Positions 4,595 through 59,816 of a stretch of 64,000 nt of DNA are shown in pieces; positions within the stretch are counted from its first letter, which is position 1; each line of letters opens with the position of its first letter. The DNA is taken from NCBI GenBank assembly GCA_014898415.1, contig RCTD01000001.1, positions 3,410,001 through 3,474,000 on the forward strand. The letters run 5' to 3'. Origin of the DNA: Stromatinia cepivora (lineage: Eukaryota > Ascomycota > Leotiomycetes > Helotiales > Sclerotiniaceae). Under the pieces are notes generated by a model. It did not search any database. It had not been told where the DNA came from and saw nothing but the letters and a program-made list of their open reading frames with translations. The translations under genes were made by a program, and so were the position numbers.

Positions 4595-7500
4595 TCAAAC
4601 AGCATCAGGACCAGCATTCTCATTCGAAGAAACACCATCAGAGCCTAAAATAACAGCCGCATTATCAGGACTCGCGCCACACCACAAGCAACATGTATTC
4701 GTGGCAAAATTCCAATAATCACACCTGTTAGATCCGCATTTCCAGTCACCGGTATAGAAAGGTACGATAGATCCATCATCTCTCATTGCGCCGGGAGGAT
4801 GAGTAGGACTTGGATGTTTTCTTTCTAGCATATTCTTGTCTTCTTCTTCTGAAATACTTCTCTGCTCCATCTCATTATCTATTGCTGGAGTCGGGAATGT
4901 ACTAGTATCCTGGCGCGGGGTGGATACACATTCGCCTTCCATTCCATGGTTGGGATTGTTGTCAGATATCGCAGCGCTATGGTTAGTTCCTTGAATTAGA
5001 GGATTGAAAACGCTCTCTGGACATTCGTATGTAACGTGTCCTACTTCATTGCATTGCCAACAGATAATGTTTTCACATTCATCTGCCCACGAGCTGTGTA
5101 CTTCTTGAATGGCTGGATTAGGGTTAGATATTGTGGCATTTGCATTTGCTTTTGCATCATCTTGATTAGAAGAACTTTCTGAGAATGAATCGAGTTCGAA
5201 CGAATCGGGTGGGTTTAAGGCTGGGGATTTCATCGTATCATTTTCATCGTCGCTTAATCGAAAATCGTCTGGATGTGGATGGTGAAATGAAATATCAAAA
5301 TCATCCGGCTGGGGAAGTTCAAATGAAAAACCCGTATCACTTAAAACTTCAACAGAAGAATTTGCAATAGACAATGTTCTCGATGATGCTTTAGATGACC
5401 CGGTAGAATTATGAGCGATACCTATTTGAGGAACTGCGATTGGAGGAACCAGTAAAGACTGTATTTGAACTGGTACGGAGGCACCAGAGGATAGAGCACG
5501 TCGCTTTTCGCGTCTTCGCAGAGTTCGGGTTTCTTTTTGCTGCAAATTTGTAGAGCGTGGGCTGGTTGATCGACTGATATTGTCACGGAGATCCACATCT
5601 TCCGCATACGGATTTGGTGGCGTTGAAGAACATCTTCTAGTTGAGCCTTCCGGGTACTCCGTCGGCGGGAACAGCAATTGTTGATTGTTCAGAACCGGAC
5701 TGTGCAATGGCGATGCCTGTTTTGGCTTTATGTCCTGTGATTTAGGGGGCACGCTACTACTACTTGAGCTCTCTTGAATTCCTTCGAGTACAACGCTCAA
5801 TTTTGGAGAGCGTGAATTGAGTTGATTTAGCCGTGACTTAGGGGATCCAGCAATTAGAGGATTTTGAGTCCTAGCTTCATACGAGAAAGTGCCCATGGAT
5901 CCTGAAGATATTCGCCTCTTATTAAGCGAGTTGGGGTTAGAAGATAGTCGGGATTCAACGTCTGATGTAGAGGAGAGTTTTCTCTTTGCGGGTGGTACAT
6001 AGGCATTGGTGTTTCCCGTTTGTAATGACGGCGACGGTTTGATGTCAGAAGAAGATGGGATCCTTCTCTTTTGCGGTGGTACATATGCAGAAGAAGTTGA
6101 TTGCTGTTCCACAGATGAAAGAGCACCTGTTTCATGGAAGACTTCCCCAGAGCCGGAAGCTTTTGATGCGGGGTTGGAGGTAGACGTCGATTCGTTCTTC
6201 ACAACAGGAGAAGATTGAATATCATTCAACGACGAGTCTTCATCTTGAATTTCATAAACAGGAGGCGGCAACTTTGACTTAAGAACTTTAAAGCTAGCTT
6301 TTGCATCCTGACTAGCTTTCCTAAGGCCGGAAGCTATATGGGCATAGCTTGTGGATGATTCCGACTCATCGCTTGCTACAGGTTGTGCTTCTTCCATTGC
6401 AATCACTATCGGAAACGGATCTTGACTTTTAACAACAGTAGGTTTCTTGGAAACTTCTAACTTGGTGCTTGAGGCAGATTGTGCTTCCATTGCACTTAAT
6501 ATCGGAAACGGAGCTGGAGTTTTAACGACAGTAGGTTCCTTGGGGTGTTCTAATTTGGTGCTTGCTTCAGGTTGTGCTTCTTCTGTTTCAGTCAGTGGAG
6601 GAAATGGATCTTGACTTTCAACAACAGTAGATTCCTTGGAAGATTCTAACTTGGGTGATATTGGTTCTTGCACAACCTTTTTAGCATACGATATTTCTGG
6701 AGCTCGATTGATGACATCAGAGCTTGATAGCTCGTCCTGAGAACTCATGACAGGCCATTGTTCCTGTGCTGAAGGTACCTTACGGGTTTCATGACGCTGC
6801 TCTGTTGGAGCTTCTAAGTCGGGTGTTTTCTCTCCGACCTTTTCAGCATATGACATCGTTAAAACTTGTTTGGTGAAGTTAGAGTTTAGTTCTTTTGCTT
6901 CTGAACTCATGGCAGGCCATTCTTCCTGTACTTTAGGTATAATGAGGGTTCCGCGATGCTGCTGCTCTGGCGGAGCTTTTGGCTTGGGTGGCATTTGCCC
7001 AGCTTTTTCAGCATATGACATTACTGGAGCTTCCTTGACGACATCAGAGTTTAGTTCTTTTGCTTCTGAACTCGTGGAAGGAAATTCATTCTGTACTTCA
7101 GGTACAATATTTATTTCGCGACGCTGCTGCTCTGGCGGATTTTTTGACCTGGGTAGCATTTGCCCAGCTTTTTCAGCATAGGACATTGTTGAACTTCCTT
7201 TGGTGATACCAGTACTTGCTTTTTTATCCTGGGAACTCGTTGACGGCCATTCTTCCTGTTTTGACGAGACTTTTTTGTTTCTGCGATATTCTCTTAGAGG
7301 CTCCAACTTCGGTGGTACATGCGCAGCCTTTCCGGCGTAAGAGTCTGCTGGGACTCGGCGTTTAGATTCAACAGCTTTCGTTTGAACATTATTCACTTGA
7401 CTAGGCAAGGGCGGTAGTGAGTCGATTGAAGACGAGGGAGTGACCGATGACTTCAATTGTGCAGCAGTAGATGGTTGTCCTACTTCAGATCCAGGGCTGC

Positions 7501-10098
7501 TTCCTGGTTTTCTTTTCTGTTTGGCTTGTGCAAATCTGGAATTATGGCTCTTTTGGATTTTATGTATCATCCGGGTAATATGTGATTTTGGACGATTAGA
7601 GTTTTGGCGTTCGCGCAACCTTTCCAATTCCGCCTTCTTTTCTCCTTTCTTCCCAACTTGCTGAAGCTGTTTGGTGGTTAGAGTCTCTGTTCTTTTCTCA
7701 AAACCTTCGATTTCCTTAATCTCTCTCTGCAACTCTAATATCTCTTTCTCTAATGTCTTCTGTTCCTTCGAGAGCGCAACCTTATATTGTACACTACCTG
7801 CCAATTTTTCTTCCGTGGGTTTACTTGGGTCGCTTGATGAAGCAGCTGTATTGACGGGGACACTGGATAGGTCTTTTGCTAGAGGTAATAGACCTTTCCA
7901 GTTATAAGAACTACGATTGCGTCTGTAGTTTTGTTCATAGGTACGATACATATCTTGATTGTCTGAATGCCTGTTGAGGATGTTGCTGTTTTGATTTGCT
8001 GTATCCTTCGGCTCCATAGTGCGATTCGATATTGCCTCAAGATACTTGGGAGATTCTGGAAGTGGCGCTTCTATAAACGGCGTTTCTGAAGGCGGCGATC
8101 CCTGCGGCGGCATATAATGCAAAGCATGAAATGAAGAATATGCGAAATCGCGGAAATCGGTGCAAGATGTGGTCCTCTCATTGTCCAGAATAACGAAGGG
8201 TTCAGGAGACAATGAGAACCTGCGGCGGTAAACGCCAAACCAAATTTTCAGAATTTCCTCTTTTTCACTCAAGGTCGCGATTTCTTCAAGAATAGCATCC
8301 CGTAGGCTCACGCCATTTTGTTGCATGGTCTCAAAATGTGCAAGCCTTAGAACTTGGTTTAACAACCTCCTAATTCTTTCCTTAAGTTCCATTTCATCAT
8401 CATAGGAAGCATGAAGCTCCTGTAGATAACGATCGAGTCTTTCTTCCAAGTCCATCTGTCTCGCTTTCTTCGTCTTAATCGTTTTTGCCTCCTCAAGAAG
8501 CAAAGCCTCCCCTCTAGCTTCCTTCATCTCTAAATCCGCAATATAATCAAGGCGTCTGGCTAGAGTCAATATGTCACGCCGCTCTTCTAGCATCTCTGGT
8601 GAGATTTGACTGCTCAGATTTAGAAGTTCATCGAACTTTTGACCTAGGAGGGTTGAATTTTGGTCCAAGCGCTTGCGAAATCTTTCCAATCTACGTAGAT
8701 GGTCTACAGTGCGTGGATGTTCCAAATCTTCTTCAACAAGTTTTTTTAGTTTTGATTCCTCTCCTTGACTCATGTCTTGGACCGTTTGCCCTGGATAAGC
8801 TTGAGAGGGAATTGTATCAGGATTATCCCACGCCGGATCATAAACTGAATTATTCTCTGGCCGGCCACTGTTACCATATGAGGTTCCAAGTTTACTTGCT
8901 TGCTTAATAGAGAATTCATATGTCCATGGACGCCTCGACTGATTCCAAAAATCAGGTATCTCGCGGAAATCCTGTGCCCAACGAATTGGAGGACGATTAT
9001 GTCTGAGCTAACCTCAAGAAGTCAGCTATGTGTTCCCAATGTGATCAAAGATTGATCATCTATACCGAGACTAGATAACGTAAATATGACGTCCATATAT
9101 TTTTCTTTTGTCTAGGACAGTGTTCGAATAAATGCGTCGTGGTGTTGCATCGAGGACAACCTGAGATGAAACCGAATTTATCCACGGGACCCATGCAGAA
9201 GTGCAAGAGGTGATCTTCTGCATCGCAGTTTGCACAACGGTCCTCTCTTTCCTGTCGCCCAGGTATGTCAATATGATCTCCATTGTTGGCACGTGGTTTG
9301 TATGGAAATGGAGATTTCTTGGCATCGGCAACCGCATGAGGCTCATCCTTGATATCATGGTTCGCACCATCGTCAAGGCCATCAAACTGCGATGTTGTTT
9401 TAGCTGTAACAAGTTCATTGTCTGATGGCGTAGGAGCATGCAATGGTGCAACTGGTGGTTGAAATGTAGAAGGGAGTGAAACGATTGGTTTTTGGCCTGA
9501 TTGTTCTGTTGGCAAAGATTTTAATGGACCTAGTGGAACGACTTCTTCTTGTGATGCATTCTGTTCTATCGGCAATGGATGTGCACGGCTTACTGAACTT
9601 GAAGTAAAATCTGAAGCAAAACGGCGAGCAGAGCATGTTGCGGTAGCTGAGGAGCTTCGGGCTTTTCTTGGCCGTGGTGCTTCAACAATATCATCTAAAT
9701 ACATTGGAGTATCATCAGCTAAAGTGAGTCCAGGAGACGACGGTGGCTCCTCCGGAAGCGTTGTGGTTTGGTAACTTTGGTTCTGGGCCTCGTGATCAAT
9801 GGGTGGTTCCCTGGGGTTTCCTGTGGGTATACTCGCTAGGAAAGCTTCATTGGGCCCTAGATCGAAGTTAGTATGCACGGCGAATTTCTTTGGGCGTGTT
9901 TAACTGACAGAAATATTTCCATGTCTCAACTTGAGCACTCAATGGTAGAAAGCATTGAGGTATATTCGATCCATCGCTTTGGAGCCGGTCAAGTATAGAC
10001 CCATACCGGCTATAGAAGGATTTGTATGGTATTCCTTGCGTGTGTGCTTTGCGGCCCATTACCTCCAGTTCACACATGTGATTATTATGACCGTTCAT
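4595..10098 (-). CDS. Large zinc-knuckle / RanBP2-finger protein with internal repeats
   Basis: Three exons join in frame: 10098-9909, 9856-9066 and 9007-4595, 1797 residues. The 52-bp intron has a perfect TACTAAC branch site; the 58-bp one has GCTGAC. Two CCHC knuckles lie near the end of exon 2 (CANCDAEDHLLHFC, CPRCNTTTHLFEHC) and a third sits near the C-terminus (CWQCNEVGHVTYEC). A RanBP2-type finger follows (W-x-C-x4-C-x3-N-x6-C-x2-C). After about residue 405 there is a charged coiled-coil stretch, then a basic segment, then five ~55-residue repeats carrying SYAEKAGQ and EWPxxSS, then three shorter DPFP repeats, and two AYVPPxKR motifs. Most of the rest is Ser-rich and disordered. The fingers suggest RNA or ubiquitin-related binding, but I know no characterised orthologue. 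The start codon is the least certain point. The gene is divergent from the gene at 10497. Confidence 0.75.
6660..7350 (-). repeat. Five tandem ~55-codon repeats inside the zinc-knuckle gene
   Basis: The core SYAxKA recurs at about 7338, 7168, 7003, 6842 and 6683, a spacing of 159-170 bp, each time with a Pro/Glu-rich linker and an [EN][EQ][WF]P-x-x-SS block. A second set of three ~32-codon repeats with [DA]PFP and TVVxxxxPFP follows at about 6640-6400. The copies have diverged, so this is an old in-frame duplication. Confidence 0.75.
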
Positions 10099-25933: not shown

Positions 25934-27269
25934 ATGGATAGTACGATACTTGATATTTCGTTACAGGAAGAAGCATCGGGAACGAGGTTGAACTAAAATA
26001 TTGCCAGAGTCTCTGAAAAGCCAGAAGCGGATGAAGCTCAAGTGACGTCTGAGCTTCAGGAAAATGATGAGAATGTTGTTGATTTTGAGGATAATGATTC
26101 AGAAGATCCTCTCAATTGGCCTTTGTGGCGCAAATGGTCAATTGTTAGTTGTACAGCGTTGATGTACTTGTTGTGGTATGTTGATATCTTCTTTTCACTC
26201 GATTATCTCCTCCCATGCGACTTGACTTTTGATATTTCTGGATGCTTTCAATCATATTATGTCTAATCCCTAACTCATAGCAATCTCGGCACCATCACAA
26301 TTGTACCAGCCGTACCACGAGTAATGGAAGAGTTCCACTTCACAAACCAATTGTACTCAACATTGCTCGTGTCAATCTGGGAACTCGGTGAAGTCTTCGG
26401 ACCATTCTTAATAGGACCACTTTCCGAAATATACGGTCGAATGCCCGTGTACCATGGTGGCAATATCCTCTTCATTCTATGTCCTACAGGAGGAGCATTG
26501 AGTACCAATATGTCCATGCTCATCGGTTTCCGATTTCTGACTGGATTCGTTGTGGCCTCAGTGACTTTGGGACCGAGTATTGTCGGAGATCTTTTCAGGA
26601 AAGAAGATAGAGGGACCGCTATGTCGGTAGCTATTGCCTTTCCACTATTAGGACCATTTGCTGGACCAGTAGTCGGTTCTTATATCATCGAAGCAAAGGG
26701 ATCTCGGTGGACTATTTGGATCGTTGTCATTGCCGTCGGAGCAGTTACGTGTTTTGGGTTTGTTGTGTTTCGGGAAACATACAAGGCGATACTTTTACAG
26801 CGGAAAACCGAACGCTTGTGCAAGATCACAGGGAACGAGAGTCTGAGATCGAAGTATGATAGTCCGGAAAAACATACGAATTGGAGGAAATCTCTGGTGC
26901 GGCCAATCAAAATGTTGTTCTTCTCGCCAATCGTTTTCATCATATCTTTCTTTACGGCGCTTGTTTATGGTATATCCTACCTCATCCTTACAACACTTAC
27001 GCCAATCCTGGAAAATAATTACGGATTTGGACAAGGTCCTGTGGGACTTGCATTCTTAGGAAGAGGTACGTACCCCCACCTCATTAGGCAGCAGAATAAC
27101 AAAACTAACTTCTACAGCTGCTGGAAATGTCATCGGTATGATTCTGTATGGGGTCTTCTCCGATCGATACATCAAATACAAAAAGTCCCAAGAAGGCTAT
27201 CTCAAACCCGAACATCGAATCTCAATATTTGGGCTGGTCATTCTCGTCCCCTGTTCCACCGACTCTTGA
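25934..27269 (+). pseudogene. Truncated MFS multidrug transporter (DHA1-like)
   Basis: The N-terminal half of a DHA1-type drug:H+ antiporter is clear: DPLNWPLWRKW, NLGTITIVPAVPRVMEEF, GPLSEIYGRMPVYHGGN (the loop 2-3 signature), RFLTGFVVASVTLGPSIVGD, then the cytoplasmic loop, LVYGISYLILTTLTPI and NVIGMILYGVFSDRYIKYK. Introns at 26176-26280 and 27066-27117 join in frame. The frame stops at 27267-27269, after about seven or eight membrane segments, and no frame downstream supplies the rest. At the 5' end, ATG 25934 opens a frame that hits TAA after 20 codons. Reaching the main frame would need a 21-bp intron, too short to splice. Relatives normally have ~500 residues and 12 segments. Probably inactive. 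Confidence 0.65.
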
Positions 27270-28162
27270 TATCTTTCTCATCTCTCCACTCTCTGATTCT
27301 TCATCTATCATTTCGCCAACATGGACCTCTACATTCTTCCCCACGAACTCTGCTCCTCCTCAATATTTTGGGAAACTTACGCCAATAGTAGGTCTTGATA
27401 CAACAGTGAATTCTTTACCATGCCCTGGAAATGGTGTGTTGAGTTTTGTATTTAGGTTTGCGGGGGGGGTTGAAGGAAATAAAGCTGTGTATGAAATTTG
27501 GCCGCAGTATCCTGTGGGTTTATCTGGAGGCTTTCCAATGACGGGTGTTTATTTGACGATGTGTTGATATTGTTATGGGCTCGGGAAGGTATGGAGGTTC
27601 GGACTTGGATGTGGATGTTGTGGTTGTAAATCTGTTGAATGGTGTCAGCGGATTGGCGATTACTTTTTATTCTATATCCCGGACCATGTAGAATACTATT
27701 CACAATTTTAGTGAAATGAGTATTGCTTTGTGCTTTGGACATGAGGGAGGGCTCTTATGGAAGTGATGTTGTATTTATCGTCTTCAATACGGAAGGTGAT
27801 AGATGTATCATTGGGAATACTTCCAAGTCCGATTCATTTAAGCTTGTCGTGAATCTCTTGATAATAAACTGTCACCAGGTGTCTAGTATCAAGATAAAAG
27901 ATTTGTAGAGCGTGATAAAGCACTATTGAAATACATTTACAATATCATCTGAGATCGAAAACTTGCCATTCATTGATAACCCCGGGCATTTGTAGCACAT
28001 AAATTGATGCTGTATATAGGTGACTTACGGAAGTACTTACCTAACCAACACCCATTCACGCTAACAAATCCATTTCCATCCCACCCATGATATTTCCCAC
28101 TCCAAGCCCTTCCATCCACCACAAACCCCCCACAAATCCCATAACCAGAGCCTCTCAACAAA
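27270..28162. other. Intergenic / eroded 3' part of the transporter relic
   Basis: The first ~300 bp keep a long open frame (to ~27567) but do not resemble MFS segments 9-12. The rest, up to the methyltransferase relic, has no supported gene. A G-tract of nine lies at about 27461-27469. Confidence 0.4.
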
Positions 28163-35715: not shown

Positions 35716-37494
35716 CTATTTCACATCCCAATTCCCCCCCGCCCACTCCCTCAAAACATTCTTCTTAACCTTCCCCGTACTCGTCTTTGGTAATTCCGAC
35801 ACCACAATGACTTCCTTAGGAACCATAAACCTACTAATACTACTTTCCTCCCTTGCCCACCTAACCACATCTTCACCTTTGAGTTTGCTCTCTCCCTTTT
35901 CCCCATCCCCACCGCTACCCCCATCACCACCCTCCCTAACCGTAACAAAAGCCACCGGAACCTCCCCCCATTTCTCATCTTTAACTGCCACCACACCCGC
36001 CTCCAGTACTTTCTCATGTTGCACCAGCATAGCTTCCAACGCCACACTACTTATATTTTCACCTCCACTAATAATAATATCCTTCGCGCGATCCAAAATC
36101 TGCGCACTCCCATCCTCATACCAAACTGCCAGATCACCACTATGTAATGCACCTCCGGCGAACAATTTCGCCGTCGCTTCCGGATCATTATAATATTCCT
36201 TTGCACAAATATTTCCCACAAAGATGATTTCACCAATTTCTTTACCGTCGCGAGCTACGTCTATGAGTTTGTCGGGCGGTTGATCGGGTTTAATAATGCG
36301 AATATTGAGCGAGGTGAGGAAACCGTGGCCTTGACGAGCCATGCGGGCGTATTTTTCTTTCGCGGGAAGGTCTTCCCATATGGGCATGTGATAGCCTTTT
36401 GTAATGGGACCGTAGGTTTCTGTCATACCATAGACGTGAACTGGGATGAGATTGAGATTTGTCATGGTTTCGAAAAGATGAGCTGTAGGTGGTGATGCAG
36501 CGACTGTGACGCGGACTGGATTTGAGAGCTTGGTTGCTTCATTAGAGGCGCAGAGAAGTGTGTTTACTGTAGGTGCGGCGTTGAAATGGGTGATGGGTTG
36601 GGATTTTAATAAGTTCCATATCAAAGGGTAGTCGATTTTGCGGAGACAAAAATGGGTGCCCCGGACAGCTGTTACAGCCCAAGGAAAAGTCCAACCCACG
36701 GCGTGAAACATAGGGAGTGTCCAAAGATATCCACATCTTCCTTTGTGAAAATTCAATCCCGATTCCACCACATTCCCCAAAGCCGCAAGATAAGCACCTC
36801 GATGCGTATAAACCACTCCCTTTGGTTTCGCCGTCGTCCCACTCGTAAACGGAATTGCAATCGTGGCATCCTCATCATCGGCCTGCGCATGTAATCCATC
36901 CCATCCCTTTCTTCCAGTCTCCCCATCATATCTCAAACCCTCCAAAACCGCCTGATCAAATTCTCCTTCATCTTTATCCGTATCCTCGTCAACAATAATC
37001 CTGACACCCTCATTCCTCTCCCTAAAACCCTCCAACAACCCCACAAACTCCCTATCCACAATAATACAATCCACCCCCGCAAACTCAAAGATATAAATAA
37101 CGTCCTCCTCCTTTAACCGATAATTAACCCCTACATGTATGGCCCCAGCAGCCGCTACTCCAAATATACTTTCGAGAAAAGTAGGAGTATTCGGACATAA
37201 TATCCCTATTTGAGAGAGCTTATGTTTTTTGAGATAATATGCTAAACCACGAGAACGATCTGCAAATTCTTGATATGATCGTCCAATTGTTTGTCCATTT
37301 GCTGTAACATGGTGGATGGCTGGGGCATCAGGTTCAATGGCTGCTGCGCGAGGAAGGAAAAATGTAGGTGAGAGGGTATGAATGTGATGTTTTGGGGCTG
37401 GCGGCGACGTAGGAGTTGCAGGAGATGTTTTCGATGCAGAAGAAGGTAATAAATGATTAACCAAGCTTTGAAGCCTAGAAGTAGGACCCGACAT
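35716..37494 (-). CDS. AMP-forming acyl-CoA ligase
   Basis: A single 592-residue exon of the ANL superfamily. The order is complete: P-loop TSGTTAKPKGVVYTHRG, LPMFHAVGW, AAPTVNTLL, VYGMTETYGPIT (A5), HSGDLAVWYEDGSAQILDR (A7), KDIIISGGENISS (A8) and PKTSTGKVKKN with the catalytic lysine (A10). The sequence is closest in feel to the plant/fungal acyl-activating enzymes that act on short- or medium-chain acids, so it should adenylate a carboxylate and load it on CoA. A Ser/Pro-rich ~30-residue N-terminus (SSASKTSPATPTSPPAPK) may be a mitochondrial presequence or simply disordered. There is no PTS1 (ends NWDVK). A Gly/Asp/Glu/Lys insertion (GGDGGSGGDGEKGESK) near the C-terminus is unusual. Substrate not predictable. 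Confidence 0.9.
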   Translation of the reverse strand: MSGPTSRLQSLVNHLLPSSASKTSPATPTSPPAPKHHIHTLSPTFFLPRAAAIEPDAPAIHHVTANGQTIGRSYQEFADRSRGLAYYLKKHKLSQIGILCPNTPTFLESIFGVAAAGAIHVGVNYRLKEEDVIYIFEFAGVDCIIVDREFVGLLEGFRERNEGVRIIVDEDTDKDEGEFDQAVLEGLRYDGETGRKGWDGLHAQADDEDATIAIPFTSGTTAKPKGVVYTHRGAYLAALGNVVESGLNFHKGRCGYLWTLPMFHAVGWTFPWAVTAVRGTHFCLRKIDYPLIWNLLKSQPITHFNAAPTVNTLLCASNEATKLSNPVRVTVAASPPTAHLFETMTNLNLIPVHVYGMTETYGPITKGYHMPIWEDLPAKEKYARMARQGHGFLTSLNIRIIKPDQPPDKLIDVARDGKEIGEIIFVGNICAKEYYNDPEATAKLFAGGALHSGDLAVWYEDGSAQILDRAKDIIISGGENISSVALEAMLVQHEKVLEAGVVAVKDEKWGEVPVAFVTVREGGDGGSGGDGEKGESKLKGEDVVRWAREESSISRFMVPKEVIVVSELPKTSTGKVKKNVLREWAGGNWDVK

Positions 37495-38981
37495 CTTTGC
37501 TTCTGGTTTGGTGTTCAGGTATAGTTTGGCTGTCTGACTGGTGTTAGTGCCTTGAATAATCTCGTCGATCTGTCTATTCTAGACAGCCTCCACAATCTCT
37601 CGAACTCCGACAAAGTTCCAAAGTTAGCACTACAGCTCTTCCTCAAGCACAAAGCGTTGACCGCCGTCTTCACAATCCGCCCAAACAAATCCAAATCCGT
37701 CGTCTCACACTTTCCGGGCGGTTTTAATTTGTATCGCCCTTCTCCAACTGTATCGTCCAATATGCGTATCAATCGATATATAACCTCAATCGACGTATAA
37801 CCTTCATCCAGCCACCTCACAACATAAAGAACCAAAATCCGATCCCAATATTTCAAACCAAACCAAACCAATCCAAATCAATCCAATGCAATTCTCTCAA
37901 AAAGAATCAACCTAGATAAGGTACAACAAAGACGCGATCATAAACAAGCAGTACTCCGTACAACTCTGTACTTTAAGTTCTCAAAAAGTAGGTGAGCACC
38001 AACTCAAGTACTACCTACCTAAATAAATAAATAAATACTACCTACCTAGGCAGAGAGCTACCAAGTTCCCGTGGAGTTACACTTGTACTACCCCACAATC
38101 CGATCCAAACCACCAATCACACATCCCAAATATCATCCTCGGCAATCCCATCCTTCCCCAAAAAGGAAAGGAAACATCAAAAAGGAATCAATTCCGCCCC
38201 GCCCGGCCTTCGGGTTCGGGTCTCCGGAGCCTAACTTCTTTCATCATGCTTACCTCATCGTACATACAATACTTAACTTGACTCATGCTCTCGAGAGTTC
38301 ATGGGTGTCAATGAATAGGTATCTCGATTGGAATCATGTGCATATAGTGGAGAAGGGTTGTGGGAAGGAAATGCATGGAGATAGGAGATGGGAGGTAGGT
38401 AGATGAACAGCATTCCAATCAAACAGAGGAGCAGAGTAGGGAAACAATTCAATCCTTGGAAGTTTTGAAGTCTGGAAATCTTTGGTTCTACCTATGGGTA
38501 TATCAGTCGAGCTGTTAAAGGTATCCAATAAAATTACATCATGATGATCTTGTCATCAAACTCTCTCCAAAAAAACTGCTCTTTGAATTCACAAAGAATT
38601 AAAGTAACTTGTACCAAACCGATGCTCATTCATAAACTGTAGCTAATGGATTTCATTATTAATTTTCACAATTCCACTCCCATTTCCACAATGACCAAAC
38701 GCAATGTATTCATTCTTGATTCATGCCTTGGGCTTTTCATTTTGCTATGAACTGCATGCAAGCCGAAGCAATACACATCAGAGTTCCTTTCTGCATCAGA
38801 CTCCTTGTCGTCGTAGCATTTCCCAATATCGTGTATGGTAAATGAATACCAGGCTCTGAGATCTCCCAACAATTGGTCGAACAAAGCATTGATGTTGTTA
38901 TTGTTGAAAAGAAGAAACCGTTAAACAACCCAATCCATCCACCCAGCAGCGCAAAATCACATCAAATAAGGTCCAGGATAT
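37495..38981. other. Intergenic region, ~1.5 kb
   Basis: Upstream of the ligase gene. Contains a 118-codon minus-strand ORF (37515-37871) directly in the expected leader, a TACCTACC-rich patch (37995-38050) and a short GC-rich palindromic patch near 38195-38230. No gene supported. Confidence 0.45.
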
Positions 38982-53863: not shown

Positions 53864-55306
53864 TTACAGATCTCTATGTAGGTCATCAACAACTGAATGT
53901 GTAGCCGTGTTGTCCATTTCCATAATCGCGTTGTGACCGCCTCGTAGTTCCGTGTTTGATGACTCGTCAATATTCTTGTATGCGTTTGCGCCCTTTGTAG
54001 TTGGGTTCCTTGAATCTCTGGATTTTCTGGAACGGTTTGAGCCGCCGGTTCCAGACTGAAGAGACTGCAGAGAAATGACACTTCGTAGGCTAGCGACTAC
54101 TGAGGCGATTCCTTGTGGACTGACCAGCGGCTTCAGAGTGGGAAGACAACATGCTACTAGAGCAAGACCTGCTTCTATTTGGCTCCAATAGAATACGGTG
54201 GATAGGGTGACTATAAATGTTAGGAATGTTACTTTGAAGGAATACGTCTAACATACGATTCTCATCAATGTGAAGAGTTGCGATGCTTTCAGTTGTCAGA
54301 CTGATAACTATCCCAAGCCGTATAATTGATGCCACCAGAGCCCTAAGATATGTCAATGAGATGGCCAAGTAGACCAAGCAGGCAAGAGGCGCACTTACAA
54401 GAACGCTAGTAGAAAAATGCCAGTCACAGCAAGCTTTCTGCCAAAGGGCATATGGAGACGCCAGATCTGTATAAACGTTAATTCAGAAGCCTGGATCTGG
54501 AAATATAAAGTGGTGACCTACCACCGGCATAGGCATGACAACGAGTAAGATATTGATCAAGAACTCTGAGATATACAGCCCTTCCTCCTTTCCTAAGCTA
54601 TTACTACAGTAGAGGATAAGGCCTGCCCGAGAACCCCAAGCTGCGGAAAAGTGCGTGCCGCAAAGGAAGAGGAAGAAAAAGAAGAAAGCAATGGTCCAGG
54701 CGACGACAATACCCAATGAAATCCATGTGAATATCCTGAACGCACTACCATTACCGACAACAAAGACGCGTCTGTAGAAGAGGATAATGCTACTTTTGAT
54801 GAAACCATATGCAAGAATCATCAACAGAGTAACTGCAAATTCAACCTGCTCGGCTATTGACGTTTTTGGATCTATCGCTGACAACACCTCTTCTGGCGTA
54901 GTTGCGGAACTCGGTGGGGTGGAATATCCAATTGCATGCTTTCTTACGCCTAAAGGGGAGGAACAAAGGTTAGAGTTTTGTGCATGATATCTGCTAGCTC
55001 TAGAGCAACTTACCTTCAACCAGTGTTGCTCCCATTCCAATGAGCATCAACTAGTGTCGCTAGATAGTTAGGACAACTGTGAGGATCTAGTATCAAAACG
55101 AGTTTGGGTTGACGTACCAGTGCGGGAAGAATCAAAATATCGTCCAAGCCCACTTTATTGCCTCTAGTGTTGCGTATATAAAACCTCAAGGCCACTGCAG
55201 TGGCTCCAAGTACGGGGAAAACAACGCCGGCAGCAATGACTTCACCTGCTGTCGCATAAGGAACAAAAATTGCGGTCCCATTAGTATGGAAGCCATATTG
55301 AGTCAT
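53864..55306 (-). CDS. Fungal rhodopsin-domain (Pth11-like) integral membrane protein
   Basis: Six exons (55306-55118, 55050-55014, 54949-54522, 54466-54399, 54342-54257, 54210-53864) give 321 residues. The seven-helix pattern and conserved fungal rhodopsin-fold blocks are present: VIAAGVVFPVLGATAVALRF, NKVGLDDILILPAL, EFAVTLLMILAYGFIKSSII with LFYRRVF, FRIFTWISLGIVVAWTIAFF, a Cys pair, ISEFLINILLVVMPMPVIW and YWSQIEAGLALVACCLPTLKP. The C-terminal ~100 residues are a Ser/Arg/Asn-rich cytosolic tail. Such proteins are related to the Pth11 receptors and to SAT20-type proteins often found in secondary-metabolite loci; ligands are mostly unknown. It is a few tens of residues shorter than many relatives. 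It lies on the flank of the P450/UstYa/peptide group. Confidence 0.85.
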
Positions 55307-56129
55307 GCACCAAGATAGTCGCTGAAGAAAGAAGAAAAAAACTTGATCAAAAACAAGGTCGGAAAGGTGCAGAAACTTGGATTTTGTCAACCTACAATCA
55401 CAGCAAAGGGGAAAGAAATCTCGTGTGGTGGCTTCGGGGAATGCACCTTCAGATCCACGCGCCGTAAATTCCTCGGTTTCCCAAATTAACACTTGCTTGT
55501 TTGAATCATTTAGCTAGGGGGGTTTCCCCTACCATCTATCTGTATGGGAATGGAGGCATCATAAAGGGAAGTTGGACGATGATACTTGCAGCATTTAGAT
55601 GGGGGTCGGCGACGAAAGGCTACATAGATGCGGAGATTGATGTTGATTATGGTAGTAGCAAGTCAGAAAACCTTGGGATTATGATAAGACGATGTGAAAT
55701 GATTCGAGGATTGGTATGATTGCAACAGTTGAGCGGAGTGAAAGAAGGTTGCGAGATTTATGTTGTTGGAAGTCAGTTGGTGGCACGGACCGGGTATTCT
55801 CCGGATATCCACATTCTTCATCCTGTCAATTATTGCATGCATGTAATGGGTGTATGCAAGCGGCGTGGGCACAATAATGACTAGTGATTACTTTTTTCAA
55901 GACCCTGTATGAATCCTCGCAGGTGTCTCATTACCCGCCATGTCATCGGGCCTGAAGTTCATCTTACTTCTAACCGTACTTTCTTACACAACCACTTCTC
56001 CACCCAGCCTTTACTCAACTGACTTCAACTGCTCAAGCGTTCTTCAGTTTGATACCTTTTATCTTTTGACAGTCTTATTACAAGTCAAAACTACCCGAGC
56101 TATCTAGCATCCTCACCTGCTCCCTAGTC
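55307..56129. promoter_or_regulatory. Divergent promoter region (rhodopsin-domain / P450)
   Basis: 823 bp between two divergent starts. No supported gene; an ORF extending the rhodopsin-domain frame upstream (to 55492) has non-conserved content and is taken as leader. Confidence 0.45.
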
Positions 56130-57714
56130 ATGGCTATTTCAGGGTTTCAGGCTGCCTTATCCATCCTGGGTTTGTACGGCCTGTATGTAATATCGGATCT
56201 AATAAGATACCGGTATGCCATGTACAAAGCGGGTTGCAGCGTTGCTGTACGATACCACCATAAAGATCCAGTTTTTGGGTTGGACCTTTTTCTCAAGCGT
56301 GTTGCTGCCATGAAGGAGGGGGTGTGGTTGGATGTGGACCAATACCTGTTTAGCAACTACGGAAAAACAGTTTTAACAAATGCTTCGGGGAAAAAACAGT
56401 ATGTCACTATGGACCCTCGGAATATCCAAACGGTTTTAGCAACAGAAGTGGACAAGTTTGGTTCTGCCCCTATGAACTTTACAGTCACCCGACCATTCCT
56501 CGGTGAGGGTATCATGAACACAGATGGTGCACGATGGAAACTCTCTCGCCAGTTTATCAACCCCATCTTTACTCGGGCACAGGTTTCCGAATTATCCACA
56601 TTCGAAATTCATGTTCGGCGGATGATAGATCGGATCCCTCGTGATGGTTCAACGGTCGACCTTCAGCCGCTATGCAAATCACTTTACCTTGACAGCACCA
56701 CGGAATTCATTTTTGGGAAATCTGCAAACTCGCTATCCCCTGAAACCAGCAATGTTATTGCACGCCGGCTCCCAGAAGTTTTCGATGAAGCACTGCGAGG
56801 CATGCTCACGCGATTTCTCCTTGGCAAATTTAGATTCCTTGCCAGAAACGAAAAAGCATGGGCTCGGCAATGTGCCGAGGTTCATTCCATTATCGACAAC
56901 TACATTGAAGAGGATATTGAGGAGAGAAAGAAGGCTGCGGAGTCGCGAGATACACCATATAAATACGTTCTTTTAAGGGAATTAGCCAAGGCTACCGACG
57001 ACAAGCTCTTCATTCGGAACGAGTTGATGAATATATTTTTCCCTGCACGAGACTCGGCAGCTGTTCTCACAAGTAATGTTGTCTTCTTGCTGGCAAGGCA
57101 CTCCGATGAGTGGAACAAAGCTCGAGAGGAAGTGTTGAGCATTGGAGCTGAGAAGTTGACATTTGAAAAGTTGAAGTCACTGAAATGCGTTCATCATGTT
57201 ATTAGTGAAAGTAAGTTGTGGTTCTATCCGAGTACTCGCTCACAATAGTCGAAGGTCACCATTTCAAAATCCCAATACTAAAATGTTACTAGCTCTTCGA
57301 ATGTTCAGTCCCGTGGTCCGCAGCTGGAAAACCTGCCTCTCTCCAGCGGTGTTACCTCATGCCGGAGGTCCACTAGGAAAGGATCCGGTTCTCTTAGAGA
57401 CCGGAGACCAAGTGGATATGGCATTTGGTTCTATGCATATGGATACGGATATATGGGGTAGCGATGCTCATGAATTCAAGCCAGCTCGCTGGGAGGGTCG
57501 CAAACAGGATTGGGGATACATACCGTTTCTCGGCGGAAGGCGCATTTGTCCTGCGCAACAGAACGTTTTGACAGATGTTTCGTATGTATTGGTAAGATTG
57601 ATGCAGGAGTTTAGCGCCTGTGAAAATCGTGATCCGTGTCATGAATATTTGTCAACACAAGTGTTCACCAAGGAGAGCAGGAATGGATGTAAGGTTTCAT
57701 TTGTCTCAGCCTAG
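56130..57714 (+). CDS. Cytochrome P450, CYP52-like
   Basis: Two exons (56130-57210, 57293-57714) give 500 residues. An N-terminal anchor (ALSILGLYGLYVISDLI) is followed by typical CYP52/CYP539-type sequence: PRNIQTVLATEVDKFG, FLGEGIMNTDGARWKLSRQF and RPF. The I-helix reads FFPARDSAAVLTS, with Ser in place of the usual Thr of the oxygen-activation D-T pair. The 82-bp intron splits the ExxR motif (E360-TL-R363), and the heme loop is PFLGGRRICPAQQ with Cys446, where Ala replaces the common Gly. CYP52 enzymes hydroxylate the ends of fatty acids and alkanes in the ER. Here the neighbour is a UstYa-family gene (convergent, 265 bp apart), so a role in a specialised pathway is possible. All essential residues are present; I judge it functional. 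Confidence 0.88.
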
Positions 57715-57979
57715 TCAATGAGCATCGGGTCCTTCACCGAGTTTACTTCTACATATCAAATGCATCTCCAAGTATGATTAGACTCATTTGAATCAGAAAT
57801 TCACATACTCGTACGTTTTAAAATTGTATCGGAAAGAAGTTGTTGATTTTCAAATTACTAGTAGGAAAACGCAGAGAAAGGCTAGGCGAAAAGCAAAGAC
57901 AAGCTCAAACCCCAGATTCTGCCAATTTTCAAATATCTTGACCATCGAGCCGTTGAACCAATAGACACAAAGTCCTCAT

Positions 57980-58984
57980 TCACACTTCGGCGTTGGAAGC
58001 AGTCGAATTATCGAACCAACTCCACACCTTTTCATCCGCGGGTCTCCAGTCCGAGCCTTTACTAAAGTACTCCCGTATCAATTCCAAGTCCGGATTTCCC
58101 TCTTGACAATACCGCATTCTGGGAATCTGGCTTGTCTTCTCATCTTCTACATTTGGGTTGCCGTATCGAAAACACCCTGGATGTGCCATGGTCCATGCCT
58201 CAAGGGCGTCCCAACTTCTACATTGTCGGATCTGCCCTTGGGCAGCCGTTCCGGGTCTGTCTGGAAATGTGACTCGAAGGGTATCGTCCGCCGTGCATAA
58301 TATATCTGTCTGTATCTGGTCAAGGCAATGAATTATGTGATGGTGAGAAAGAGACTGCTCGATGCCCATTCTATATTCCATGAATGATTTATAGATGTTT
58401 TTCTGGAATAAAGTTAGTTACTTCATTACAGCTTGAACGGCCAGTCAGGGACTCCGAAGACACTTACGACGCAGTGCAAAGCATGGTAGGCATTTACGAA
58501 GTAGATGGTCTTGTCAGTGCCCCAAGGAAACGTAGATCCCAATGGTAGGCCCTGTTCCAAGGCCCATACTTTAGGAACAGCGACAATTCCACTATCGTGG
58601 TTGATGGCATCCAAATGAAGATCCCTTTCCGTGACGTTAGGACTCGTGTAGACTGAATTCTGAACCCATTCCACAGAGACTTCGTTATCTCTCAGACCAG
58701 CTTCGAGGATGCTGTTAGCAGTGTGACGAAAGCTTAATATATCGGAATGAATTACCAAATTGAGAACGATACTCAAATTGTTTTGCATGAGAGGTGTGCC
58801 AAGGTATGGAAGCTCTAACAGTCGCTTGCAAAAGGTTGATGATAATTGAGAGTGTAAGAATGGCGATCAGAACAATGTTTCGTTGCCTTGTTCGGCGTTC
58901 AGTCGTATCTGCAGGCAATGCATCGGGCAAAGAAGACCCTTCAGGGTGACTGATAAGACGTTCTGATTCGTATTCCTTCGACAT
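57980..58984 (-). CDS. UstYa-family (DUF3328) oxidase-like protein
   Basis: Exons 58984-58756, 58700-58468 and 58402-57980 give 294 residues. A short cytosolic N-terminus is followed by one membrane helix at about 38-58 (IVLIAILTLSIIINLLQATV) and a luminal domain with WVQNSVYTSPNVTERDLHLD, IVAVPKVWALEQGLPLGSTF and the two family signatures: HALHC at 149-153 (YFVNAYHALHCV) and HIIHC at 176-180 (HHHIIHCLDQIQTDILCTAD). UstYa/UstYb homologues catalyse oxidative macrocyclisation in ustiloxin, phomopsin, asperipin and victorin-type ribosomal peptides, and some act in non-ribosomal pathways. Intron 1 uses an AG ten bases beyond the CTAAC branch site; the joins restore conserved sequence. The gene is divergent from the repeat-peptide gene and shares its promoter region. 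Confidence 0.9.
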
Positions 58985-59465
58985 TGTGCGAGGTCTTTCA
59001 GGCGAATCTGGAGAAAAGAAGAAATATGTGGGGCTTGAAAAAGGGTGAAGCGTTCTTGAAAATGCAAAAGAAGAACTTCTTAGTAGATGTGCAAAGGGAA
59101 AAAAAATAGACTCTCTACAGTACTGGTTCAGTAGTCTGCAGATAGCAACGGATCACCTAGCTACCCATTGTTCGCAAGCAAAAACCGCCGATCCTCAGAC
59201 TTTGGTTGCGGAGAAGTCGCCCCAGCAGATCCATATGGCATCCAATTTTGAGGTGCATGATACAACGGATGTACTTTGGGCACCAACTGCTCCACCCAAA
59301 TTCAGAGGGCAAACTATGGGTATATAAGATCAAAATCAAACTTCCCACCCAGGTTTTCTCCGAAATCTGCTTCCAAGTCAAAGTGAAATCCAGTATCTTA
59401 TCACACATATCAAAGCATTACTAGTTCAGAAGAGAAAACACAAAATTTCTGACAAAGCAGCAATA
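58985..59465. promoter_or_regulatory. Shared divergent promoter, UstYa-like / repeat-peptide genes
   Basis: 481 bp separate the two start codons. It holds a TATA box for the peptide gene (listed separately) and CCG/CGG triplets around 59185-59215 (ACCGCCGATCC ... TTGCGGAG) that could be half sites of a Zn2Cys6 regulator; such factors commonly drive fungal metabolite genes. The binding-site reading is inference. Confidence 0.5.
59321..59327 (+). promoter_or_regulatory. TATA box of the repeat-peptide gene
   Basis: TATATAAG lies ~140 bp upstream of the peptide start codon, a plausible position given fungal leader lengths. Clear TATA boxes are uncommon in this window, so it suggests strong, regulated expression. 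Confidence 0.5.
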
Positions 59466-59816
59466 ATGCTCCTCACCAGAACTCTCCTGATAGCTACTGC
59501 AAGCTTTACTGCTCTGGTTGCTGCATCTCCGCTGCCTAGTAAGCCCATTCCTCAAATTTACTTTACTAAGCCTTGTCTAACAATCTCAGATACTCAGGCA
59601 AAAGATCCTGTCCAAGCCGGAGATTTCGAAAAACCAGTCTCGAAAGCCATTTCTTTGAGTATTCCTGAGCCTGGTCTATTCGCCAAAAAGGACAAAAAAG
59701 TCCTCCTTCCAGCAAATAAGAAGCCAGATATACCTGAACCTGGGTTATTTGCTAAGAAGGACCTCCTTCCAGCAAACAAGAAGGCGGATATCTCTGAGCC
59801 CGGATTGTTTGCATAA
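59466..59816 (+). CDS. Secreted repeat peptide, candidate dikaritin-type RiPP precursor
   Basis: Two exons, 59466-59538 and 59590-59816, encode 99 residues. The 51-bp intron (GTAAGC donor, TCTAAC branch) is a multiple of three, so the unspliced frame is also open. A signal peptide (MLLTRTLLIATASFTALVAA) is followed by a ~35-residue leader and three near-identical blocks: IPEPGLFA, IPEPGLFA and ISEPGLFA. Blocks 1 and 2 are each followed by KKD and a spacer containing LLPANKK; the third ends exactly at the stop codon. Signal peptide plus repeated cores flanked by dibasic sites is the layout of UstA-like precursors, which are cut by Kex2-type proteases in the Golgi and oxidatively cyclised by UstYa-family enzymes; such a gene lies divergently next door. 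Differences: KK instead of the preferred KR, and no Tyr in the core (only Phe is aromatic). Alternatively a simple secreted repeat protein. Confidence 0.72.
   Translation: MLLTRTLLIATASFTALVAASPLPSKPIPQIYFTKPCLTISDTQAKDPVQAGDFEKPVSKAISLSIPEPGLFAKKDKKVLLPANKKPDIPEPGLFAKKDLLPANKKADISEPGLFA

Follow-up and report, generated by a model that had tools for sequence, protein, structure and literature searches.

Does a small group of genes in Stromatinia cepivora encode a peptide pathway of its own, and which genes belong to it? The group lies in a window of 64,000 nucleotides (C1:3410001-3474000, C1 being contig RCTD01000001.1 of a 55.67-Mb, 48-contig assembly), and coordinates given without a contig are positions in this window. 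The original prediction placed a minimal dikaritin-like pathway at 56130-59816, made up of a repeat-bearing peptide precursor, a UstYa-family gene and a cytochrome P450 gene. Our results support the pathway and revise its extent: the locus is quite likely a small dikaritin-like (ust-RiPS) peptide pathway with a neighbouring seven-transmembrane (7-TM) gene in the same functional set. The unit probably reaches beyond 56130-59816, as the 7-TM gene, at 53864-55306, shows linkage to UstYa loci across the genome. Gene structures are given as predicted exons, all paralogue and linkage counts were made within this one genome, and the linkage radius was 8 kb unless stated otherwise.

The precursor gene (59466-59816, forward strand) consists of exons 59466-59538 and 59590-59816, the latter including the stop codon, and encodes a 99-aa protein of the Kex2-processed repeat protein (KEP) type. 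Its N-terminus is hydrophobic and signal-like, passing one hydropathy filter but not being flagged by a stricter one, and the predicted GT-AG intron (59539-59589, forward strand, 51 nt, GTAAGC...CTCAG) directly follows this putative signal peptide. Because the intron length is divisible by 3 and its frame is open, splicing and retention would both yield protein, and a 116-aa retained-intron form is possible. The repeat region (59616-59816, forward strand) contains the cores, the KK processing sites and LLPAN-KK spacers between the cores. Core 1 reads SIPEPGLFA-KK, core 2 PDIPEPGLFA-KK and core 3 ADISEPGLFA-stop, so that the invariant part is I-x-EPGLFA; the three blocks with Lys-Lys-bounded spacers described earlier are thus present, whereas the literal PEPGLFA occurs only twice, the third copy reading SEPGLFA. 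KK directly precedes copies 2 and 3, which would give clean ten-residue products, and copy 1 has no dibasic site immediately before it. Since copies 1 and 2 end in A-KK and copy 3 in A-stop, Ala is suggested as the C-terminal boundary of the product. By inspection, the protein has the at least three repeats separated by Kex2 sites that characterise KEPs, and the leader with repeated core and recognition motifs that characterises dikaritin precursors. A finder for repeats combined with dibasic sites covered 362,713 bases, made up of 59 loci and the window with overlaps counted. In the window it flagged the precursor gene, its antisense frame and a 1470-aa open reading frame (ORF) with long-period repeats.

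The core is conserved as a peptide. A degenerate EPGLFA-coding pattern had 3 matches in the 55.7-Mb assembly, all in the precursor gene, compared with 2 for the same pattern read backwards as a control. The three EPGLFA cores showed 16 pairwise nucleotide differences at 54 compared positions; 14 of these fell at third and 2 at first codon positions, and none changed the amino acid. In a simulation with random substitutions of the same numbers, EPGLFA was retained in all three cores in 0 of 200,000 trials. These results indicate that the peptide, and not a DNA repeat, is conserved, and that the predicted core is under strong purifying selection. The three cores use different codons at nearly every position (copies 2 and 3 at 5 of 6), whereas the adjacent LLPANKK spacers differ at 1 of 21 bases, as if core DNA had been kept apart or spacers homogenised. 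In searchable main texts, EPGLFA occurred in one paper, on a PRDX4-derived peptide; the claim that the core is undescribed holds for those texts only, the supplementary KEP tables lying outside the search.

The precursor stands head-to-head with a UstYa-family gene (DUF3328, PF11807; 57980-58984, reverse strand; exons 58984-58773, 58711-58468 and 58402-57980), as had been proposed. The spliced 292-aa protein matched Pfam UstYa nearly over its full length (4.4e-15, positions 5-220 of 220) and contains two HxxHC motifs, YHALHC and HHIIHC, the mark of the dikaritin class-defining enzyme. H27, H30, C31 and a CxADD motif were invariant when the exon with the second motif was aligned with its counterparts at three paralogous exons, and no PDB relative of the protein was found at E 1. 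The divergent start codons are separated by 481 bp (58985-59465), and a TATA-like box lies 146 bp before the ATG of the precursor; this region may serve as a shared promoter, and the genes would be co-expressed. The next gene is indeed a P450 (56130-57714, forward strand; exons 56130-57210 and 57293-57714), intact and encoding 500 aa, with a match to Pfam p450 at 1.5e-41. Among its best 60 of 164 PDB matches, all were P450s, BM3 among them (best 6.7e-20), and we take the enzyme to be alkane-hydroxylase-like. The pathway reading is well supported because the KEP-type precursor, UstYa gene and P450 gene together form a dikaritin-like layout, and because relatives of the P450 stand beside UstYa genes at four other loci.

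On this gene content, the precursor would enter the endoplasmic reticulum, and a Kex2-type protease cutting after KK, followed by trimming, would release ten-residue (P/A)DI(P/S)EPGLFA peptides ending in Ala. One Kex2-type P-domain gene was found in the genome, at C28:605k. The UstYa-family enzyme and the P450 would oxidise the core, possibly cyclising it. Because the core has no Tyr, oxidation would be expected at Leu or Phe, as in victorin, rather than as a Tyr ether. The victorin core differs in sequence from the core in the window.

The fourth gene of the proposed unit, absent from the original prediction, is a predicted intact 7-TM gene with PF20684, the domain of Pth11-like G-protein-coupled receptors (GPCRs; fungal rhodopsin/Pth11-like). 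It occupies 53864-55306 on the reverse strand in six exons (55306-55118, 55050-55014, 54949-54522, 54466-54399, 54342-54257 and 54210-53864) and encodes 384 aa. The spliced protein matched PF20684 at 2.8e-40 over positions 1-236 of 237 and has seven hydrophobic segments, the seventh barely above the cut-off, while CFEM (PF05730) gave no match at E 0.01. Its start codon and that of the P450 gene diverge across 823 bp (55307-56129). Comparison of the two divergent intergenic regions revealed no shared 11-mers, 2 shared 10-mers (null mean 1.3) and 12 shared 9-mers (null mean 4.9, 95th percentile 10), the last a slight excess.

We assessed how often such genes accompany UstYa across the assembly. 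A profile search of the whole assembly yielded 52 UstYa exon matches, grouped into 31 loci, and 96 PF20684 genes were obtained by grouping 129 profile matches (150 of 161 candidates scored) with 44 from a paralogue search. The results showed a PF20684 gene within 8 kb at 12 of the 31 UstYa loci, and within 5 kb at 10. A random place lies near such a gene in 3.2% of cases, so about 1 locus would be expected (binomial P 9e-11 against uniform placement). Uniform placement is not the fairest background, however, and it is possible, though unlikely, that the 7-TM linkage is merely regional, with large accessory families sharing variable chromosome segments. Neighbourhoods resembling those of secondary metabolism are a fairer one, represented here by P450 genes away from UstYa (an incomplete list, with 92 of 236 candidates scored in the profile search). 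Of these, 13 of 95 had a PF20684 gene within 8 kb; this rate exceeds the uniform expectation and is consistent with such an effect. The UstYa loci nevertheless exceeded this background significantly (Fisher P 0.004), also when the window was left out (11/30, P 0.008). HET genes, taken as an accessory-family control, lay near 0 of 31 UstYa loci, which argues against a general accessory-gene effect; as only 0.62 were expected, the zero shows no excess and little beyond that. MFS (major facilitator superfamily) genes were not usable as a control, with 9 of 372 candidates scored.

The relatives of the individual proteins show that the linked subfamilies match. The window 7-TM protein matched 28 non-self loci, of which 9 were within 8 kb of UstYa, compared with 2 of 67 other PF20684 genes (P 2e-4), a difference that speaks against a purely regional effect. 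Seven of its eight best relatives by summed bits were UstYa-linked, at a cut chosen after inspection, and the top one (C2:2024k) was unlinked. The P450 had 33 non-self paralogous loci, and the 4 within 8 kb of UstYa all ranked in the top nine by summed bits, the best one (C7:581k) not being linked; at a cut of ten relatives, chosen post hoc, 4 of 10 were near UstYa compared with 3 of 92 other P450 genes (P 0.0015). The UstYa protein matched 8 other loci, with a 7-TM gene at 6 of them compared with 5 of 22 others (P 0.028). UstYa, P450 and 7-TM genes occurred together within 8 kb at 7 of the 31 loci (C1:3348k, the window, C3:209k, C5:429k, C8:144k, C11:226k and C21:503k), in varying order and strand. 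At C23:409797-416957, UstYa matches lie between a tyrosinase and a 7-TM gene of PF20684 type.

One of these sets has a clear peptide precursor of its own. At C21:502731-511391, four UstYa exon matches, a P450 gene and a 7-TM gene accompany a KEP with four TDGTQIAEGWKR-type units, giving a second complete and independent set; this KEP has a signal-like start, a predicted intron and four copies of TDGTQIAEGW-KR type. In the C5 set, at a distance of about 0.65 kb from the closest P450 exon match, a secreted protein of 95 aa is predicted that has three degenerate units (IIEPTPLCEF-KR, EAGTPLTTLAEF-KR and SEPSPLSEL). The intron position is similar in the predicted precursors of C5 (73-nt exon 1 and GTAAGC donor, as in the window precursor) and C21 (64-nt exon 1). 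It is plausible that the C5 protein is a KEP precursor, but the assignment is doubtful. Two further precursor finders with signal and hydropathy filters disagreed on the window and C5 candidates: the stricter one flagged C5 and missed the window precursor, its signal filter being too strict, whereas the second flagged the window precursor in unspliced form and not C5. The C5 candidate is unproven because only one of the two flagged it, and the same finder, besides missing the window precursor, returned a poor hit at locus L045 and antisense or wrong-frame hits at L048 and L049. A direct repeat of 138-bp period between two UstYa genes of this locus (C5:429747-430079; L014:2514-2846) was read as non-coding, because its 111-aa open frame has no signal peptide. 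In total, a precursor was recognised at 3 of the 12 UstYa loci with a 7-TM gene, one of the three being the doubtful case.

Repeat ORFs with dibasic sites also stood beside UstYa at C2:1395k, C28:571k and C1:933k, with no 7-TM gene within 8 kb. The first (L022) has EDEDLSQVYKR-type units, and the last (L049) has APWAEKRWEEKR-type units in which X-Ala follows some of the KR sites, a pattern that recalls alpha-pheromone precursors. At C28:571000-580999 (L048), a repeat precursor of seven EEDIYPPYGMF units is accompanied by UstYa matches and, at C28:580k, by a tyrosinase (PF00264), and this looks like a classical dikaritin-type locus. A precursor-like tblastn hit at L047 was rejected as antisense to a frame that we read as short-chain-dehydrogenase-like, and a frame of 189 aa at C3:2647k that overlaps an ORF of 524 aa gave a weak precursor match (E 0.04).

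These loci bear on a rival account, in which the peptide from the window precursor is secreted in linear, unmodified form, like a pheromone or effector, and the UstYa enzyme and P450 act on something else. Most catalogued KEP genes (6120 of 7878) have no DUF3328 gene among their 15 nearest genes (PMC7329392), UstYa and P450 genes are paired without a recognised KEP at C1:3348k and C31:173k, and a core without Tyr would fit such a peptide. The intact UstYa gene is immediately adjacent to the precursor and divergent from it, though, and repeat precursors stand beside UstYa also at C21, C2:1395k, C28:571k and C1:933k; we consider an unmodified product quite unlikely. Beside the C31 pair (C31:168700-178699, L046; locus positions 6000-10000), G+C falls to 12-21%, and this AT-rich block is of the kind that repeat-induced mutation may leave.

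Several observations weigh against the favoured dikaritin-like pathway. The EPGLFA core has no Tyr, a residue found in 65.6% of the repeats of UstYa-linked KEPs (PMC7329392), and the processing sites are all KK, with KR and RR absent from the precursor. The search for KEPs recognised none in the 10 kb covered at each of C1:3348k, C31:173k, C25:585k and C15:222k, nor in the part of the DNA covered at C3, C8 and C11; in all, 5 of the 8 UstYa loci that have a P450 gene lack a recognised KEP, C3, C8 and C11 among them. Most paralogues of the 7-TM protein (19/28) and of the P450 (29/33) are not near UstYa, and relatives of the window UstYa, P450 and 7-TM proteins are only about 28-52% identical; together with the differing order and strand, this identity indicates that the UstYa-P450-7TM set is not a recent segmental copy. 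The locus has a single UstYa gene, the next UstYa match on the contig being about 119 kb away, and no transporter or methyltransferase was found among the 17 ORFs of at least 110 aa at 53.8-64 kb, a scan that genes with shorter exons may escape; in both respects the locus is as originally described. About 16 kb downstream of the precursor there is an O-methyltransferase ORF, and an MFS ORF lies at 26267-27385. No tyrosinase is near: among 19 PF00264 exon matches genome-wide, the sole one on C1 is at 1.30 Mb, and the locus is at 3.47 Mb.

The surroundings also bear on the possibility that UstYa, P450 and 7-TM form a tailoring and sensing set for a non-ribosomal or polyketide metabolite, with its core enzyme elsewhere and the precursor a bystander. 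UstYa enzymes act also on products of non-ribosomal peptide synthetases (NRPSs) and on polyketides (PMC12048977), the set recurs without a recognised precursor, and an ORF for an AMP-binding enzyme is located 16 kb to the left (35719-37578). This ORF is stand-alone, however, with 620 aa that match AMP-binding and its C-terminal domain only, and neither NRPS nor polyketide synthase was matched among the ORFs scanned at 53.8-64 kb or among those selected from the following 20 kb. The C21 set has a clear KEP and the C5 set a doubtful one, and a metabolite pathway of this kind appears highly improbable.

What the 7-TM protein might do in a peptide pathway admits more than one answer. We tentatively propose that UstYa-linked Pth11-like 7-TM proteins are cognate receptors of UstYa-modified peptides, in which case the locus would encode a signal, its oxidases and its receptor, and the genome up to a dozen such channels. 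We hold this proposal to be doubtful, and transport, self-protection or a membrane-bound function in biosynthesis would fit the evidence as well. If true, it would provide ligands for class XIV fungal GPCRs; a 2026 review states that no ligands are known for the Pth11-like receptors it covers (PMC13308352), and the fungal KEP survey describes the roles of cyclic KEP peptides as poorly characterised (PMC7329392). The peptide locus alone would be one more candidate among thousands of catalogued KEPs. Our comparison suggests that the recurrent UstYa-P450-7TM set is the new element, with the receptor idea as its extension, and the set makes one question addressable, namely whether the peptide of the locus activates the 7-TM protein of the locus.

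Among known systems, the precursor by inspection fits the KK branch of the published pipeline for KEP proteins, with at least 4 fragments and at least 3 repeats (Le Marquer 2019, PMC6339444; Umemura 2020). Kex2 cleaves KEP precursors, and the cores of ustiloxin, asperipin-2a and phomopsin cannot be cyclised without DUF3328 proteins (PMC7329392). In the same survey, DUF3328 counts peak at the position adjacent to KEP genes, and a DUF3328 gene is among the 15 nearest genes for 1758 of 7878 KEP genes (22%); such neighbours being common, the precursor-UstYa-P450 trio belongs to a known kind. Two definitions of dikaritins are in use. The older requires five genes, namely a precursor, a tyrosinase, multiple DUF3328 genes, a methyltransferase, and a transporter or peptidase (Ding, as cited in PMC12048977), and the later one relies on UstYa as the class-defining enzyme (Montalban-Lopez, as cited in PMC12048977). 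By its predicted genes, the locus fits the later definition and not the older one, because it has no tyrosinase near, no Tyr in its core and one UstYa gene. Like the dikaritins or ust-RiPS (ustiloxin, phomopsin and asperipin-2a), it combines a putative signal peptide and repeated cores at dibasic sites with an adjacent two-HxxHC UstYa gene, and like asperipin-2a it has a single DUF3328 gene (PMC7329392). It differs from them in lacking core Tyr and tyrosinase, in having only three cores and all-KK sites, and in its P450 and linked 7-TM genes. Victorin of Cochliobolus victoriae likewise comes from a multi-core precursor, and the residue types joined in its ring are present in GLFA: cyclisation links the side chain of its C-terminal Phe to an internal Leu, and the product is chlorinated (PMC9233826).

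Among the papers listed in the literature searches, no link of UstYa/DUF3328 with the Pth11-like, PF20684 or rhodopsin families was found; DUF3328 and rhodopsin came up together in one paper, a study of Pisolithus-poplar symbiosis. The nearest precedent is cluster 55 of Trichoderma reesei, a predicted 22-gene ribosomally synthesised and post-translationally modified peptide (RiPP) region with a putative precursor, a P450 and a PTH11-type GPCR (PMC7099791). Unlike the window locus, that cluster has no UstYa in its figure legend, its precursor is grouped with amanitin/phalloidin, and in the text consulted its GPCR is not discussed as part of the pathway (PMC7099791). The 7-TM protein of the window itself resembles class XIV Pth11-like GPCRs (PF05730/PF20684) in its full-length PF20684 match and seven hydrophobic segments. 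Pth11 has CFEM, which not all Pth11-like proteins share; the window protein differs from Pth11 in having no CFEM match and in being linked to a UstYa peptide locus.

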